64,000 nucleotides of DNA from the NCBI RefSeq assembly GCF_013002705.1, contig NZ_JABEND010000002.1, positions 496,001 through 560,000 of the forward strand. The letters are read 5' to 3'. The notes under the pieces are model-generated. The model was not told the origin of the DNA. It saw nothing but the letters and a program-made list of their open reading frames with translations, and did not search any database. The position numbers and the translations under genes were made by a program. Below, piece by piece: positions 28,714-36,867 of this stretch. How positions within the stretch are numbered: the first letter of the stretch is position 1; every line of letters starts with the position of its first letter. This stretch comes from Nakamurella aerolata (GTDB lineage Bacteria > Actinomycetota > Actinomycetes > Mycobacteriales > Nakamurellaceae).

Positions 28714-30993
28714 TCAGCCCCGCTGCCACATCCGGTGCTGGGCAAGGAGTTCGGTGAGTTCGTCCACCACCGCGCTGGCGGAGCCGGTGGCGACTCCCGG
28801 AGCACCGAGATCCACCACGTCGGCGATGCCGGAGTCGTCCAGCCCGTCGAGCACACCGATCGGCTTGGCCTGCCGGAACAGTTCACCGAACAGCTTGACC
28901 ACCCGTGGATCCAGCTGCCCGGCCGGCTGATGGCCGGCCTTGCTGTCGCGCGCGGGGAAGGCGTCGTCCGCCGGCGCCGCCAGCCCGGCCAGGACCGCGG
29001 CGTCCAACTCCACCGACGCCGCCGTGAGATAGCTGCGCTGGATGGCTTGCTTGCCGAATGTGCCGCCGGTCGGCGCGATCAGCAGCGGCAGCATGCCGGC
29101 GGACCGCACCGCGTCGGCCACCGCAGCCGCCACCGTGGGATCGGTGTCGGCGCCGACCACAACGCCGACCCTGCGCCCGGCCACCGGCCACCGCCCGCCC
29201 AGCTGACTCAGCGCCGGGCTGGGCTCGGGAGTGGTGAGCTTCTCCGTCGGTTTCGGAGCCGGCAGGCCCAGACCTGCGGCCACCTGCTGGCACAGCTCGG
29301 CGTCGATGTTCGCCAGGCAGCCGAGTTGGCGCAGTTTGATGTTCTCCTCGTAGCACTTGGCCAGCTCGAAGGTGTAGGCAGCGATCACGTGCTGCTTCTC
29401 CACCTCGCCCAACGATGCGTAGAACAACCGGCATTGGGTGTAGTGGTCTTCGAACGACTCCGACAGCTCGCGCACCTTGGCGCCGTGCACCTCGGTGGGG
29501 ATGTCGATGAAGGCGCCCTCCGCGGTGCTGGCGGTGAACGGACAGCCGCCGTCGAGCGAGTTCGGCCGGTACGCGGCGACCCCACCGGGAACCGCGTCCT
29601 GGTGGCTGCCGTCCCGCAACAGATCGTTGACCGCGGCATGCGGCCGGTTGATCGGCAGCTGGCTGAAGTTCGGGCCGCCGAGCCGGCTGAGCTGGGTGTC
29701 GATGTAGGAGAACAACCGCGCCTGCAACAGCGGATCGTTGGTGACGTCGATACCGGGCACCAGGTGACCGGGGTTGAACATCACCTGCTCGGTCTCGGCA
29801 AAGTAGTTGATGGGATTGCGATTCAGCGTCATCGTGCCGATGATCTGCACCTCGGCCAGTTCCTCGGGGACGAGCTTGGTGGGGTCCAGCAGGTCGATCC
29901 CGGAGAAGGTCTGCTCGTCGTTGTCCGGCATCACCTGCACCCCGAGGTCCCAGACCGGGTAGACGCCGGCCTCGATGGCGTCGGCTAGATCCCGCCGATG
30001 GAAGTCCGGGTCGAGGCCCTGGGTCAGCTGCGCTTCTTCCCAGGTCTGCGAGTGCACACCCTGCCGTGGCTTCCAGTGGAACTTGACAAGGCAGGTCTCG
30101 CCGGCGTCGTTGATCATCCGGAAGGTGTGCAGCCCAAAACCTTCCATGGTGCGGAAGGACGCCGGCAGGGCCCGGTCCGACATGTTCCACAGAGTGTGGT
30201 GCTGGGCCTCGGTGTGCAGCGAGACGAAGTCCCAGAAGGTGTCGTGGGCGCTCTGCGCCTGCGGAATCTCGCGGTCCGGCTGCGGTTTGCCGGCATGGAT
30301 CAGATCGGGGAACTTGATGCCGTCCTGGATGAAGAACACCGGGATGTTGTTGCCGACGAGGTCGTAGATGCCCTCGTCGGTGTAGAACTTGGTGGCGAAT
30401 CCGCGGGTGTCGCGCACCGTGTCGGCCGAGCCCCGGCTGCCCAGAACGGTGGAGAAGCGGACGAACACCGGTGTCTCGACGCCCTTGGCCAGAAAGCCCG
30501 CCTTGCTGATGCCGGCGGCCGCGCCGTTGGCGACGAAGGTGCCGTGCGCCGCGGCGCCGCGGGCGTGCACCACCCGTTCCGGGATGCGCTCGTGGTCGAA
30601 GTGGGTGATCTTCTCGCGCAGATGATGGTCCTGCAGCAGTACCGGCCCGCGCGGGCCGGCCTTGAGCGAATGGTCGGTGTCGCCCAGCCGCACCCCGGTC
30701 GAAGTGGTCAGATACCTGCCCTGCTGGGCATTGGTCTCCGGGGGTGCGTTGTAGTCGGCCCCGGTGGGCGAGACGTTCGCCGGACCCTGCTGGTCGGCCT
30801 TGGGCGGCAACGGATCGCGGGCCTTGGTCGGCTCCGCCAGGCTGGGCGGCTCGCTCGCCGGTACGCCGGGGACGACGGCATCGCCGGTCTTGCGCCTACC
30901 GGCGCTGTCGCCGCCGGTCCGACGGGGTTCGCTCGACCTACTGTTGGATGCTGAGTTCTCGGTTGAGTTCTTGGCTGGCTTCTTGGTTGGCAA
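28714..30993 (-). CDS. katE: Large-subunit catalase (HPII/KatE type)
   Basis: The 759-aa product is of clade II size. A basic, disordered N-terminus precedes the core, with catalytic His in ERVVHARGAAAHG, Asn in LVGNNIPVFFIQD and the haem-ligand Tyr in RLFSYIDTQLSRLG. The last 150 residues form the class I glutaminase-like flavodoxin-fold domain typical of large catalases (RRVGVVVGADTD). It degrades hydrogen peroxide in the cytoplasm. A TTG at 30993 is preferred because GGAGAGG lies just upstream; an in-frame GTG at 31050 has no such site. It stands where the elongation-factor genes often precede the S10 operon in other actinobacteria. Confidence 0.92.
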   Translation of the reverse strand: MPTKKPAKNSTENSASNSRSSEPRRTGGDSAGRRKTGDAVVPGVPASEPPSLAEPTKARDPLPPKADQQGPANVSPTGADYNAPPETNAQQGRYLTTSTGVRLGDTDHSLKAGPRGPVLLQDHHLREKITHFDHERIPERVVHARGAAAHGTFVANGAAAGISKAGFLAKGVETPVFVRFSTVLGSRGSADTVRDTRGFATKFYTDEGIYDLVGNNIPVFFIQDGIKFPDLIHAGKPQPDREIPQAQSAHDTFWDFVSLHTEAQHHTLWNMSDRALPASFRTMEGFGLHTFRMINDAGETCLVKFHWKPRQGVHSQTWEEAQLTQGLDPDFHRRDLADAIEAGVYPVWDLGVQVMPDNDEQTFSGIDLLDPTKLVPEELAEVQIIGTMTLNRNPINYFAETEQVMFNPGHLVPGIDVTNDPLLQARLFSYIDTQLSRLGGPNFSQLPINRPHAAVNDLLRDGSHQDAVPGGVAAYRPNSLDGGCPFTASTAEGAFIDIPTEVHGAKVRELSESFEDHYTQCRLFYASLGEVEKQHVIAAYTFELAKCYEENIKLRQLGCLANIDAELCQQVAAGLGLPAPKPTEKLTTPEPSPALSQLGGRWPVAGRRVGVVVGADTDPTVAAAVADAVRSAGMLPLLIAPTGGTFGKQAIQRSYLTAASVELDAAVLAGLAAPADDAFPARDSKAGHQPAGQLDPRVVKLFGELFRQAKPIGVLDGLDDSGIADVVDLGAPGVATGSASAVVDELTELLAQHRMWQRG

Positions 30994-31464
30994 TGACCTC
31001 TCCTCTCGCGGGGTGACCGATGACGAACGCTCGGCGGGACAGCCCCTCACGGTTTCGTTACCCCGGTTGCCGCCCCCGAAACCTCATGAGGCTTCGGTGG
31101 TCGGTGTCCGAGAACCGTTATGCGGCAAAGGAAACCGATGCCCAGTACTCCCCAGATGCCCACGAAGCCAGGAATGGCCGGGAATGGCCGGGAATGGCCG
31201 GGAATGGCCAGGAATCCGTAGAACGCGCAGAATGCGCGGGCCGCGTAGAGCGGCAGCCGAGGCGTGCGATGCAACGAGCGACGCAACGGCGCGACGCAAC
31301 GAAGCGACGCGACGACCGCGTGCCATCCAACGGCTGCGCGCGGTGCGGCCGGCGCCTCAGCAAGCTGACCGTGCCGGTGACGCAGGTGCCGGTGATGCAG
31401 GTGCCGGTGACGGAGATCTGAGCCACACGCGGGGACGTCCAGCGTGCTCGCGACGTCCGGCGAT
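30994..31464. other. Intergenic region with short tandem repeats between katE and the S10 promoter
   Basis: No convincing gene was found. The minus strand has an open stretch reading like a small membrane peptide (FVGIWGVLGIGFLCRITVLG, about 31115-31175), interrupted by the 10-bp repeat at 31171. It may be a decayed small ORF. A 15-bp unit GTGCCGGTGACGCAG occurs three times (31371-31415). Confidence 0.35.
31171..31210. repeat. Four 10-bp tandem repeats (GGAATGGCCG)
   Basis: Three identical copies and a fourth with one change follow one another directly. The period of 10 would place each unit on the same face of the helix. The simplest explanation is slippage. Confidence 0.85.
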
Positions 31465-31960
31465 TTGAACCGGCCCGCCATGGTGGGGCATACTCGTTGA
31501 GTTGCCCTTCCGGGGTGCTGCTTTCGTGCGGCCTGCGGCAGGGGAACAACCAGCAGTTCGGTGCTCCTCGCGAGCACAGCTGGTTCACGCCAGGACAGCG
31601 TTGCAGATGTTGCCCGGCGGCCCCGTCACCGACGTCCGGAGAATCCTCCAGCGGCACACGGTAGGGGCACGCCTGTGTGCATCATCCGCGACACGCCCGG
31701 CCGCGTGGACCGGTGAACCTGCACTGATGAACAGCGGCAGCGGCCCTCGCGGCGCGCACCACCGGGCTTGCCCGGGCAGTCGGCTTGCTCGCCGGCCGCG
31801 GTGCGCCGGAGCGGACCACTGGACTGGAGGCGGCAGCCTCGCGCTGGCATCGGCGCGGGTGCAGTGCAGGCAGACCAGTCAAGACCCAGTAGTCAAGACC
31901 CAGTGCAGCAACGCGTTCGACCGCCCGGTCGAGCGCCGGCTTGAGAAGAAGGACGGCAAC
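31465..31960 (+). promoter_or_regulatory. Putative promoter and long leader of the S10 operon
   Basis: TTGAAC at 31465-31470 and CATACT at 31489-31494 are separated by 18 bp, a plausible housekeeping promoter. It would give a leader of roughly 460 nt before the rpsJ GTG. Within it, GCACAC (31654-31659) can pair with GTGTGC (31675-31680), close to a CGACACGCCCGGCCGCG segment. Long leaders on S10 operons are known sites of feedback control by L4 in other bacteria; whether that applies here is open. Confidence 0.4.
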
Positions 31961-32266
31961 GTGGCGGGACAGAAGATCCGCATCAGGCTCAAGGCCTACG
32001 ACCACGAAGCGATCGACGCCTCGGCGAAGAAGATCGTCGAGACGGTGACCCGTACCGGTGCCAGGGTCGTCGGCCCGGTGCCGCTGCCCACCGAGAAGAA
32101 CGTTTACTGCGTCATCCGCTCGCCGCACAAGTACAAGGACTCGCGCGAGCACTTCGAGATGCGCACGCACAAGCGGCTGATCGACATCCTCGACCCGACG
32201 CCCAAGACGGTTGACGCGCTGATGCGCATCGATCTGCCGGCGTCGGTGGACGTCAACATCCAGTAA
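31961..32266 (+). CDS. rpsJ: 30S ribosomal protein S10
   Basis: A 101-aa S10 of normal length, [25 protein letters not shown] through [19 protein letters not shown]. It is part of the 30S head and, with NusB, of antitermination complexes. The GTG at 31961 is chosen because homology begins at residue 2 and GAAGAAGG lies upstream; the frame stays open another 450 bp upstream without homology. It is the first gene of the S10 operon. No tuf or fusA gene precedes it in this window. Confidence 0.97.
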
Positions 32267-32310
32267 TTCGAGTCCACCGCCATCAGTCGGCAGGAGATGG
32301 GTTTTCAGAC

Positions 32311-33000
32311 ATGGCAAACACGCTGAAGGGCATCCTCGGGCACAAGCTCGGGATGACGCAGGTTTTCGACGACACCAACCGGGTCGTCCCGGTGACCGTC
32401 GTCGCCGCCGGACCGGTGGTGGTGACCGCCGTCCGCACCGCAGACAAGGACGGCTACAACGGGGTCCAGTTCGCGTTCGGCGCGATCGACCCGCGCAAGG
32501 TGAACAAGCCGCAGGCCGGCCACTTCGCCAAGGCCGGGGTCACCCCGCGCCGGCACCTGGCCGAGCTGCGCACCGAAGACGTCTCCGGCTACCAGGTGGG
32601 CCAGGAGCTCACCGCCGAGCAGGTCTTCGCCTCGGGTGACGTCATCGACGTCACCGGCACCTCCAAGGGCAAGGGCACCGCCGGTGTCATGAAGCGCCAC
32701 GGGTTCGCCGGTCTTTCCGGTGGCCACGGCGTGCACCGCAAGCACCGCGCTCCCGGCTCCATCGGTGGCTGCGCCACCCCCGGCCGGGTGTTCAAGGGCC
32801 TGCGGATGGCCGGTCGCGCCGGCCAGGAGACCGTCACCACCCAGAACCTGACCGTCCACGCAGTGGATGCCGACAAGGGTCTGGTGCTGATCAAGGGCGC
32901 CATCCCCGGCCCCAAGGGCGGCCTGCTGATGATCAAGACCGCAGTGAAGTCGCCGGCAGCGGGGGTTCCCGCCGCAGCGCAATCCTCGGACGCGAAGTAA
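32311..33000 (+). CDS. rplC: 50S ribosomal protein L3
   Basis: A 229-aa L3 with the actinobacterial start [16 protein letters not shown] and the conserved [20 protein letters not shown] and [14 protein letters not shown] loops that reach the peptidyl-transferase region. It is one of the two proteins that start 50S assembly. It sits 44 bp after rpsJ, with GGAG upstream of the ATG. The C-terminal 15 residues ([16 protein letters not shown]) are an Ala/Ser-rich tail. Confidence 0.97.
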
Positions 33001-33012
33001 GGACACGGCCCG

Positions 33013-34059
33013 ATGAGCACCGTTACCGTTACGAATCCGGCCGGCAAGGCCGACGGCAGCGTTGAGCTGCCCGCTGAGATCTTCGACGTCCAGTCGAACA
33101 TCCCGCTGATGCACCAGGTGGTGGTGGCCCAGCTGGCCGCCGCCCGTCAGGGCACGCACTCGGCCAAGACCCGCGGCGAGGTCCGCGGCGGCGGCGCCAA
33201 GCCGTACCGCCAGAAGGGCACCGGCCGGGCCCGCCAGGGTTCCACCAGGGCCCCGCAGTTCGTCGGCGGCGGCACCGTGCACGGACCCATCCCGCACGGC
33301 TACAGCCAGCGCACCCCGAAGAAGATGAAGGCGGCCGCGCTGCGCGGTGCCCTCTCCGACCGGGCCCGCGGCGGCCGGGTGCACGTGCTGAGCGCACTGG
33401 TCGATGGCGACGCCCCGTCCACCAAGGCCGCGCTTGCCACCCTCGGCGCTGTCGAGGCACTGGCCGCCAGCAAGAACATCCTTGTGGTTGTCGAGCGCAC
33501 CGACGAGGCCGGCTGGAAGTCGCTGCGCAACGCGGCCACCGTTCAGCTGATCTCCGCCGATCAGCTCAACACCTACGACGTGCTGTGCGCCGACGACGTG
33601 GTCTTCACCAAGGCCGCGCTCGAGGAGTTCCTGTCGTTCGCCAAGCCCGGCAAGGCTGCTGCCGTTGACGGCGCCGTCGAATCTTCGGGGGCGGCCGAGT
33701 CGGCGAGCGGCAAGGGCGGCGCCACTGCCGCCCCGCGTGGACTGGTGGACACCGCCAAGGCTCCCGCCGAGTCTGCCGACACTGCCGAGGCCGGGTCGGG
33801 TACCGACTCCGACAAGGGCGCGGACACCGGCGCTGCCAAGGACTTTGGCCCGGACAGCCACGCCCCGCTGGCCGACGGCAGCGAGCCGGAAGGGTTCCCG
33901 ATCAAGGGCAACGCCGACTCGATGCTGTACCACGTGCCGGGCAGCCGGTTCTACAACTCCACCGTTGCAGAGGTCTGGTTCCGTAGCCCGGAAGCCGCCG
34001 AGGCCGCTGGTTTCCTGCTGCCGCCGAGCCAGCGCAAGAAAGATGAGGAGAGCAAATGA
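33013..34059 (+). CDS. rplD: 50S ribosomal protein L4 with extra C-terminal domain
   Basis: Residues 1-211 are ordinary L4, including the extended loop [26 protein letters not shown] that lines the exit tunnel. L4 normally ends there (about 205-220 aa), but this protein is 348 aa. Residues 212-293 are an acidic Ala/Ser/Asp-rich linker. Residues 294-336 form a compact motif, [21 protein letters not shown] then [17 protein letters not shown]. This matches the small G-IKGN...YHxPGS...WF...A-AGF module seen at the end of various actinobacterial proteins (I recall it as the sunset domain). The stop overlaps rplW by 4 bp, so the extension is translated just before L23. Confidence 0.93.
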
Positions 34060-34349
34060 CCGCCAACCCGCGCGACATCATCCTGCGCCCGGTCGTCTCC
34101 GAGAAGAGCTACGGGTTGCTGGAATCCGGCCGGTACACCTTCGAGGTGCACCCGGACGCCAACAAGACGCAGATCAAGATCGCCATCGAAGAGATCTTCG
34201 ATGTCACCGTTACCGCGGTGAACACCCTCAACCGGCAGGGCAAGCGCAAGCGCACCCGATTCGGTTACGGCCAGCGGAAGTCCACCAAGCGCGCGATCGT
34301 CACGCTGTCGCCCGACAGCAAGCCGATCGAGATCTTCACGGGCGCCTGA
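34056..34349 (+). CDS. rplW: 50S ribosomal protein L23
   Basis: A 97-aa L23, with [21 protein letters not shown] at the start and the basic tunnel loop [21 protein letters not shown]. It sits at the exit tunnel mouth and forms part of the docking site for SRP and trigger factor. Translation is coupled to rplD by an ATGA overlap. It has no unusual length or residues. Confidence 0.97.
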
Positions 34350-34373
34350 GCGGGATAGGGAACGAGAAGAACA

Positions 34374-35213
34374 ATGGGTATCCGTAAGTACAAGCCGACG
34401 ACCCCAGGTCGCCGCGGCGCCTCGGTGAGCGATTTCGCCGAGATCACCCGCGACACCCCGGAGAAGTCGCTGCTGGCTCCGCTGCACTCCAAGGGCGGCC
34501 GCAACGTGCACGGGCGGGTCACCGCCCGGCACCAGGGCGGCGGCCACAAGCGCAGCTACCGGGTGATCGACTTCCGCCGCGCCGACAAGGACGGCGTGCC
34601 GGCCAAGGTCGCGCACATCGAGTACGACCCGAACCGCTCAGCGCGGATCGCGCTGCTGCACTTCGCCGACGGCGACAAGCGCTACATCATCGCGCCGAAC
34701 CGGCTCCGGCAGGGCGCCACCATCGAGACCGGGCCGAGCGCAGACATCAAGCCGGGCAACAACTTGCCGCTGCGCAACATCCCGGTCGGCACCGTCGTGC
34801 ACGCCATCGAGCTGCGCCCGGGTGGCGGCGCGAAGATCGGCCGCAGCGCCGGCGCCCGCGTCCAGCTGGTCGCCAAGGACGGTCCGTACGCCCAGCTGCG
34901 GATGCCGTCCGGTGAGGTCCGCAACGTGGACGCCCGCTGCCGGGCGACCATCGGCGAGGTCGGCAACTCCGACCACGCGAACATCAACTGGGGCAAGGCC
35001 GGCCGCATGCGCTGGAAGGGCAAGCGCCCGACCGTCCGCGGTGTGGCGATGAACCCGGTCGACCACCCGCACGGTGGTGGCGAGGGCAAGACCTCCGGAG
35101 GCCGGCACCCGGTCAACCCGGCGGGCAAGCCCGAGGGCCGCACCCGTCGTCCGAACAAGGCGAGCGACAAGCTGATCGTCCGCCGTCGTCGCAAGTCCGG
35201 CAAGAAGCGGTAA
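34374..35213 (+). CDS. rplB: 50S ribosomal protein L2
   Basis: A 279-aa L2 of normal length, starting [15 protein letters not shown] and carrying the functionally important [16 protein letters not shown] loop with its conserved His near the peptidyl-transferase centre. It is basic at the C-terminus ([11 protein letters not shown]). It is required for 50S assembly and subunit joining. It sits 24 bp after rplW. Confidence 0.98.
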
Positions 35214-35225
35214 GGAAGCCAGCAC

Positions 35226-35507
35226 ATGCCTCGTTCATTGAAGAAGGGCCCCTTCGTCGACGACCACCTGCTCAAGAAGGTGGACGTCGCCAACGACAAG
35301 GGCTCCAAGCAGGTCATCAAGACCTGGTCCCGCCGGTCCACGATCATCCCGGACATGCTCGGCCACACCATCGCGGTGCACGACGGCCGCAAGCACGTCC
35401 CGGTGTTCATCACCGAGTCGATGGTCGGTCACAAGCTGGGCGAGTTCGCACCCACAAGGACCTTCAAGGGCCATATCAAGGACGACCGCCGCGCCCGCCG
35501 CGGATAG
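35226..35507 (+). CDS. rpsS: 30S ribosomal protein S19
   Basis: A 93-aa S19 ([47 protein letters not shown]). It lies in the 30S head near the A site and contacts S13. It is 12 bp downstream of rplB, preceded by AGGAAG, and of normal length. Confidence 0.98.
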
Positions 35508-35548
35508 TCGCGCCGACCGCCCACGAGTACCACGAGTAAAGGAAGAAC

Positions 35549-36010
35549 ATGCCTGAAAAAGCTGAAGCAGCTGCCGAGCAGCTGCCGCGCGCTCGGGCTC
35601 AGGCGCGGTACGTGCGCATGACTCCGATGAAGGTGCGCCGGGTCGCCGACCTGGTGCGCGGCCGGTCCGCCGCCGACGCCCTTGCCATCCTGAAGTTCCA
35701 GCCGCAGGCCGCCGCCGAGCCGGTGGCCAAGCTGGTGGCCTCGGCCGCGGCCAACGCCGAGAACAACCACGGCATGGATCGCGAGAGCCTCGTCATCGAC
35801 AAGGTTTTCGTCGACGAGGGGCCGACCCTGAAGCGGTTCCAGCCGCGAGCCCAGGGCCGGGCGTTCCGGATCCGCAAGCGCACCTGCCACATCACCGTTG
35901 AACTGGCCGAGGATCAGCGCGCGGCCGCCAAGCAGGCGGTCAATGCCACCAAGTCCAGCCGGGGCCGCCGTGCCGCCGGCTCGTCGAGTGCGAAGGGAAG
36001 GACCCGCTAG
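35549..36010 (+). CDS. rplV: 50S ribosomal protein L22
   Basis: Residues 12-122 are a standard L22 ([26 protein letters not shown], the tunnel-loop segment [19 protein letters not shown]). The 153-aa protein ends with about 30 extra Ala/Ser/Lys/Arg residues ([19 protein letters not shown]), longer than bacterial averages but common in actinobacteria. It shares one base with rpsC (TAGTG). Confidence 0.97.
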
Positions 36011-36867
36011 TGGGTCAGAAAATCAACCCGCACGGGTTCCGTCTCGGTATCACCACCGACTGGAGCTCCCGCTGGTACGCCGACAAGGCCTACTCCGAGT
36101 ACGTCGCGGAGGACGTTGCCATCCGCAAGCTCATGTCGACGGGCATGGACCGCGCCGGCATCGCCAAGGTCGAGATCGAGCGCACCCGGGACCGGGTCAG
36201 GGTGGACATCTACACCGCCCGTCCCGGCATCGTCATCGGCCGCCGCGGCGCCGAGGCCGACCGGCTGCGTGGCCAGCTGGAGAAGCTCACCGGCAAGCAG
36301 GTGCAGCTGAACATCCTCGAGGTCCGCAACCCCGAGTCTGATGCGCAGCTGGTCGCCCAGGGTGTTGCCGAGCAGCTGTCCAACCGCGTCTCGTTCCGGC
36401 GTGCCATGCGCAAGTCGATGCAATCGGCGCAGCGCAGCAGCAACGTCAAGGGCATCAGGATCCAGTGCTCCGGCCGGCTCGGCGGCGCCGAGATGAGCCG
36501 CAGCGAGTTCTACCGCGAGGGCCGGGTGCCGCTGCACACCCTGCGCGCCGACATCGACTACGGCTTCTTCGAGGCCAAGACCTCGTTCGGCCGGATCGGC
36601 GTGAAGGTGTGGATCTACAAGGGCGACAAGAGCGGCACCCTCGCCGAGCAGCGCGCCGCCGAGGCCGCCGCAGCAGCGGCCGGCCGTGGTGGCGGCGGGC
36701 GCTCCCGTGACGACCGTCCGCGCCGCCGCGGCGGAGCCTCAGGCACCACCCCGACCTCCACCGAGGCCGGCCGCGCTGCCGACGCTCCCGCCACCGCCGG
36801 CGCGTCCGCTGGTGCTGGCTCGGCGACCGCCGACGCGCAGCCCACTACCGCAGGATCGGAGGGCTGA
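36010..36867 (+). CDS. rpsC: 30S ribosomal protein S3
   Basis: A 285-aa S3 beginning at GTG with [17 protein letters not shown]. It has the KH domain ([19 protein letters not shown]) and the C-terminal mRNA-entry domain ([28 protein letters not shown]). The last 65 residues form an Ala/Gly/Thr-rich tail with an [17 protein letters not shown] stretch. This makes it longer than the usual 210-240 aa form and resembles tails found in other high-GC actinobacteria. Confidence 0.97.

Follow-up and report, generated by a model that had tools for sequence, protein, structure and literature searches.

Ribosomal proteins that end in a small C-terminal module, the sunset domain, are already catalogued. 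Besides the L4 kind (NF051449, '50S ribosomal protein L4, sunset domain variant'), NCBIfam holds sunset variants of L17 (NF051448), L20 (NF051450), S2 (NF051451) and ArfC (NF051433), in which the same C-terminal domain as that of L4 sits on different hosts. The domain is also present in uL4 of C. acnes (PDB 8crx chain e, a sequence that recurs in five further PDB entries), where phmmer aligned positions 5-57 of our query with chain residues 243-295 (E 3e-14). The portion of the C. acnes 70S paper available to us describes a uL4 C-terminal extension that is 100 residues longer than that of E. coli and solvent-exposed, and states that cryo-EM density is absent for it (PMC10085706). In the open-access PMC literature we found no paper on the function of the sunset domain, and none on L17 extensions in mycobacteria.

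We analysed a 64,000-nucleotide stretch of the Nakamurella aerolata genome (the window) in which rplD (33013..34059, + strand) encodes an L4 (uL4) protein of 348 aa, longer than the 301 aa of its C. acnes counterpart. This protein is a member of the catalogued kind: as a whole it scores 444.2 bits against NF051449 (curated cut-off 385), and it shares the layout of the NF051449 proteins, from which it differs in nothing essential. A previous, sequence-only reading of the locus had called a tethered domain on a universal ribosomal protein uncommon, which may be true of bacteria in general but not of Actinomycetota, where it is a curated NCBIfam kind. What we add here is the breadth of hosts, the tandem copies on membrane anchors and the kinship with the Ada zinc-binding domain, for none of which we claim priority.

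Layout of the L4 protein and its tail

Within the window rplD belongs to the S10 operon and lies between the genes for L3 and L23 (neighbours named from reading the ORFs). Terminal tails are common across this operon in N. aerolata: S3 (36010-36867) has a long Ala/Thr/Gly tail with no sunset domain, and L29 (37289-37645) has a Lys/Asp/Ala-rich N-terminal extension, both proteins being named by reading. A search of positions 30500-36000 for known RNA families returned none at E up to 0.05.

The L4 core spans residues 17-214 (33061..33654) and is the only Pfam match of the protein (PF00573 at residues 17-206, 205.1 bits, cut-off 25.8). AlphaFold2, run on 17 L4 sequences, modelled the core with confidence except for the loop at 47-99, where pLDDT is below 50. 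The core is followed by an Ala/Gly/Ser-rich linker (residues 215-276, 33655..33840) that is predicted to be disordered over most of its length, with pLDDT below 50 at 215-253 and 255-273. The sequence-only reading had described an 80-residue acidic linker; the linker is there, but it is shorter (about 62 residues) and, in N. aerolata, only mildly acidic (10 D/E, 5 K/R).

The extra C-terminal domain proposed by that reading, and its identification as a sunset domain, are borne out by the profile NF051437, which matches residues 297-334 (33901..34014) with 73.7 bits in the full protein and 77.9 bits in the tail alone, against a cut-off of 27. The suggested structure prediction gave a confident domain at residues 281-340 (ten-residue block means of pLDDT 85-94) behind the disordered linker, and together with the profile match it upholds the view of an independent, tethered unit. 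When the domain was modelled alone from 47 sequences, the mean pLDDT was 79 and the model contained three short strands and a helix, with a second, low-confidence helix in the tail. A 17-residue lead-in motif (residues 278-294, 33844..33894) is conserved along with the sunset domain, in other hosts too, and most of it is modelled at fair-to-good confidence; it seems to be part of the folded unit, though it lies outside the 42-position NCBIfam model. A distinct module had been placed at 294-336; it is indeed a distinct unit, but with this lead-in it begins earlier. The protein ends in a short polar tail (residues 335-348, 34015..34056), with pLDDT below 50 at 345-348.

Hosts of the sunset domain

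In the N. aerolata genome (an assembly rated 95% complete) four sunset matches lie above the cut-off: L4, L17 (336 bits against NF051448, cut-off 280), S16 and a Lys/Ala-rich helical membrane protein. S16 was named by reading, and its counterpart in genome G402 passes the S16 models. Two weak places (C12:512432, E 0.70; C4:41250, E 1.68) were treated as chance. Since L4, L17 and S16 have one match each in the genome, every ribosome should bear sunset tails unless they are cleaved, and the N. aerolata ribosome should carry three sunset domains provided that the tails are kept. Surface display of the module, as the sequence-only reading had it, accords with the available portion of the C. acnes paper, in which the uL4 extension is solvent-exposed (PMC10085706). 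Such display is special to neither L4 nor the ribosome, since NusA, NuoC and numerous membrane-anchored proteins bear the domain as well.

Among 17 Nakamurella genomes, eight have a sunset match of any kind and five have one on a ribosomal protein. Only two of the 16 genomes with an L4 match carry the domain on L4, and the other 14 carry other tails without it. Close relatives thus manage without the domain, which is optional, not required, for Nakamurella ribosomes.

The membrane protein of N. aerolata (L002, G000:C6:67330-70503) has one hydrophobic segment and a weak apolipoprotein match below the Pfam cut-off. Nakamurella proteins of this type were named by reading, and the script query for them was derived from these proteins themselves. 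Homologues were found (L171-L178, L180); those in six other Nakamurella genomes lack the sunset domain, several adjoin a gene read as lipoyl synthase, and the domain ends proteins of this type in some Nakamurella species only. Most of the positive charge of L002, as read from its sequence, precedes the hydrophobic segment. The predicted topology would place its cysteine-free domain outside the cell, contrary to the general pattern described below.

Across Actinomycetota, a sunset match with E up to 0.01 was found in 45 of 396 genomes of the phylum sample (above the cut-off in 34), and 105 of 298 genomes of the order sample were sunset-positive. We collected 280 distinct sunset proteins, a set that mixes a biased search with the genome samples; the 80 named loci of that search are the best 80 of at least 560 matches to a query drawn mostly from ribosomal hosts, so that their host shares are biased. 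With this caveat on the shares, 121 proteins are ribosomal and fall into seven kinds: L17 (53), L4 (39), L22 (22), S2 (3), S16 (2), L20 (1) and S3 (1). The non-ribosomal hosts are LGFP-repeat membrane proteins (31), SNase-like proteins (8), the Nakamurella membrane protein (3), NusA (2), NuoC (2), F1-gamma (1) and an aquaporin-like protein (1), and 111 are without an assigned family. One example each of the NusA, NuoC and LGFP hosts was confirmed by Pfam, and one each of the NusA, L22, S16, S2 and F1-gamma hosts exceeded the cut-offs of its own NCBIfam model. The L20 host was named by reading, the script query having come from that host itself. When one L22, S16, NusA, F1-gamma and aquaporin-like host each was searched, none matched, at E up to 1e-5, a sunset variant model for its type of protein.

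Several of the rarer hosts deserve description. NusA with a C-terminal sunset domain occurs in two genomes that belong to a single genus (L041 in G113, on one contig, and L384 in G767). The two NuoC proteins (L045 in G353 and L053 in G097) have a very long acidic tail that encloses the sunset domain and runs on for 116 and 121 residues after it. The S3 host (L345/L388 in G767), assigned by reading, was seen once, and the same short contig encodes a sunset L22 and a sunset L4. Two hosts were set aside. The start of the F1-gamma host (L135) matches an arginine repressor fragment, and its low-coverage contig is probably chimeric, so it was not relied on; the aquaporin-like host (L151) comes from a single MAG and scores below the curated cut-offs.

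The domain lies close to the C-terminus in nearly all hosts. In 98 ribosomal hosts a median of 11 and a maximum of 34 residues follow it, and the exceptions are the two NuoC proteins (116 and 121 residues after the domain) and a small number of TM hosts, in which as many as 56 and 124 residues follow. On a domain tree that is poorly resolved (67 columns, 100 rows, 47 of 97 branches open) and was used for this count only, the minimum number of host-label changes was 22, where the least possible is 10 and shuffled labels gave 46. On such a tree this suggests that the domain switched hosts more than once, though it mostly follows its host. The wider family extends beyond Actinomycetota, since the sunset profile was also over its cut-off in the Bacillus subtilis control genome. 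No phage copies were found; one viral-contig scan returned 27 pattern-matching stretches and no relatives among them.

Topology was predicted by a charge-based script for the 87 TM hosts without an assigned family, of which 66 were assigned as C-in and 16 as C-out, with five ties. The two-cysteine pattern is absent from the domain in 63 of the 66 predicted C-in hosts and present in three, and a single cysteine occurs in 29 of the 66. Two cysteines are present in all eight SNase-like hosts and in 10 of the 16 C-out TM hosts, and in 0/98 ribosomal and 0/31 LGFP hosts. In its cysteine-free form the domain is mostly predicted to lie in the cytosol.

Tandem copies occur on both kinds of host, with two to four domains on membrane proteins and two on L17 and L4. 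In genome G722 one membrane protein carries four copies and L17 carries two; in G733 a membrane protein and L4 carry two each. The surveys of the order and of the G113 family include 37 ribosome-positive genomes, of which G722 and G733 are the only ones with a tandem ribosomal host and also the only ones with a tandem membrane host, a coincidence that would arise once in 666 cases if the two were independent and that was noticed after the fact. The four-copy protein of G722 (L238, 3561-5786, - strand) combines its sunset domains with a membrane segment at the N-terminus and is a natural scaffold candidate. ArfC-like proteins with two sunset copies were found in four genomes read as mycobacteria; the one that was scanned passes NF051433.

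In these samples ribosomal and membrane hosts also tended to co-occur. In the order sample, a membrane host was among the stronger places, those listed, for 9 of 17 ribosome-positive genomes versus 74 of 281 others (p 0.025), nine of the 105 sunset-positive genomes being unclassified and scored as having neither class. In the G113 family, membrane hosts were present in 18 of 20 ribosome-positive genomes versus 3 of 40 others (p 2e-10); here membrane hosts were recognised by visual inspection, and one of 24 genomes (G766), being unclassified, was left out. The G113-family membrane host is mostly a small two-cysteine protein with a possibly extracellular domain, and since the sunset-free genomes of this family are mostly small, ancestry and genome size may explain the association. 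With both tests uncorrected for kinship, the co-occurrence is suggestive only. Nor is the ribosome-membrane pair obligatory: in the order sample the listed places include no membrane host for 8 of the 17 genomes with a ribosomal one, and in the phylum sample G214, G085 and G316 have the domain on a ribosomal protein alone.

Relation to the Ada zinc-binding domain

In its motif pattern (YH.PG.. / GF) the sunset domain resembles the zinc-binding domain of Ada. In Ada, zinc is bound by four cysteines, in the arrangement CxPxC ... CxxC, and this motif was seen in the 30 Ada domains that we used for comparison. In a profile-profile comparison, a sunset-family alignment of 137 sequences matched these Ada domains with a score of 30.6 and a probability of 83. 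In the controls, 200 column-permuted alignments reached at most 16.9 (0/200 attained the real score) and the reversed alignment reached 7.7. A narrow, low-diversity sunset alignment gave a probability of 1.4 only. The 137-sequence alignment left out a bridging protein from a different actinobacterium: L056 (G083:C67:2000-5500, - strand ORF) scores 32 bits against the sunset profile (cut-off 27) and 39.5 bits against Ada_Zn_binding (cut-off 23). It has two Ada-like zinc motifs behind hydrophobic segments, and it is the first of these that bridges both profiles.

Direct and structural comparisons gave less. The Ada metal-binding model PF02805 had no match at E up to 1 in L4 or in its tail. Foldseek against the PDB returned 16 hits, none of them significant (best E 4.1); N-Ada (1u8b) had the best TM-score (0.45) and the best probability (0.10) of the 16, with a non-significant E of 6.1.

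What sets the two families apart is the metal site and the charge. The sunset domain of L4 lacks cysteine, with H, S, P and Q at the four Ada cysteine positions in the wide alignment, and all 121 of the 121 ribosomal-host domains are free of cysteine. Their net charge averages -6.2 (-10 to -2), versus +7.0 for the 30 Ada domains, over stretches of similar but not equal length. The sunset domain thus appears to be a distant relative of Ada (PF02805; N-Ada, 1u8b) that has lost its zinc ligands and become acidic, a conclusion that is well supported by the sequence comparisons. A second relative is the C-terminal domain of SNase-like proteins of Actinomycetota, which the same profile finds (IKGN...YH.PG..Y..T..E..F) and which differs in having two cysteines in 8/8 proteins and a net charge between -4 and +5.

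Constraint on the domain and its possible roles

We compared the parts of L4 between N. aerolata (G000) and G402, a relative whose L4 bears the same tail. For the sunset domain (58 codons including the lead-in) dN is 0.031 and dN/dS 0.075; the corresponding values are 0.133 and 0.36 for the L4 core (195 codons) and 0.665 and 0.66 for the linker (41 alignable codons). In this pair, the sunset domain is under tighter constraint than the L4 core, and the linker is free to change. The L4 domain is 89% identical to that of N. lactea, the nearest named record. For the other hosts only the domains were compared: in the same pair, dN/dS is about 0.2 each on L17 and S16 and 0.41 on the membrane protein, and looser pairs gave 0.49 for L17 (versus G407) and 0.52 and 0.53 for the membrane protein (versus G411).

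Computation supports the domain, its tether, the selection on it, its spread over hosts and the loss of the zinc ligands. To account for these, we tentatively put first a reading in which the tail of L4 serves, on its tether, to dock the ribosome to membrane-anchored sunset proteins or to some partner that these have in common with it. The domain, small, acidic and without cysteine, would be suspended by a flexible linker from the solvent-facing side of the ribosome, on several ribosomal proteins at once (L4, L17 and S16 in N. aerolata). It would bind, weakly and multivalently, the sunset domains of membrane-anchored proteins or a partner common to them, and ribosomes would thereby be kept near one another or near the membrane. 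In other genera NusA, and hence RNA polymerase, and complex I might be kept likewise. That the domain binds at all, what it binds and what follows from binding are what we infer. Docking is favoured by a domain more conserved than the L4 core on a linker that is free to change (dN 0.031, 0.133 and 0.665 for domain, core and linker), by the spread over ribosomal, LGFP, NusA and NuoC hosts in a near-C-terminal position, and by TM hosts that are mostly predicted C-in, tandem copies on both kinds of host and co-occurrence in the order sample. It is disfavoured by the ribosome-only genomes and the patchy presence within one genus, by a G113-family association that is mostly with a two-cysteine, perhaps extracellular, membrane protein, by the charge of the Nakamurella membrane protein, which would place its domain outside, and by the weaker constraint in some pairs (dN/dS 0.41-0.53 for the membrane protein and 0.49 for L17 versus G407).

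The ribosome-only genomes, and the fact that the ribosome, NusA and NuoC are diverse machines with no common cell location, fit a domain that brings in a single soluble factor from the cytosol, be it a modifying enzyme, a chaperone, a protease adaptor or a hibernation factor, with the membrane hosts as clients rather than anchors. This would leave the multi-copy membrane proteins unexplained, however, and no candidate factor was found among the sunset proteins themselves; we rank it second and consider it rather doubtful. Dormancy, the other role that the sequence-only reading had floated as speculative, drew neither support nor contradiction from these results. Patchiness bears also on a further alternative, namely that domain and linker form a C-terminal cap for stability or solubility that has no specific partner, was spread by duplication and fusion and is often lost. 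The domain on two of 16 Nakamurella L4 proteins, with other tails in 14, would be in keeping with such a cap, as would the at least 22 host changes on the poorly resolved tree (least 10, shuffled 46). However, the 15 invariant columns in a 47-sequence sunset alignment point to a specific function, as does the strong purifying selection on the L4 domain relative to the core (dN/dS 0.075 versus 0.36), and we regard a mere cap as unlikely.

Binding of nucleic acid, as an inheritance from Ada-like and nuclease-associated relatives, would draw on the kinship with the Ada zinc-binding domain and the thermonuclease-like C-terminal domain, but the lost zinc ligands (no cysteine in 121/121 ribosomal-host domains) and the reversed charge (-6.2 versus +7.0) speak against it and make it very improbable. 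Least probable of all is that the L4 tail is cleaved or that the extension is an artefact of annotation or assembly, as the missing cryo-EM density stated for C. acnes uL4 in the available portion of the paper (PMC10085706) might suggest, for a flexible tether is expected to lack density, and the domain continues the reading frame, shares 89% identity with its N. lactea counterpart and is under purifying selection.

The docking reading can be widened to a hitherto unrecognised cytosolic docking code of Actinomycetota. Ribosomes, NusA, complex I and multi-copy membrane scaffolds would all bear an acidic domain of the Ada type that has lost its metal, and matched, multivalent contacts between such domains would gather the machinery of gene expression together and at the membrane; in this general form we think it improbable, on a par with the cap. 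The sunset L4 is catalogued without a published function in the open-access PMC literature, and the host survey offers a frame for testing one. If the docking code were true, it would amount to a new way of organising translation in space in Actinomycetota.
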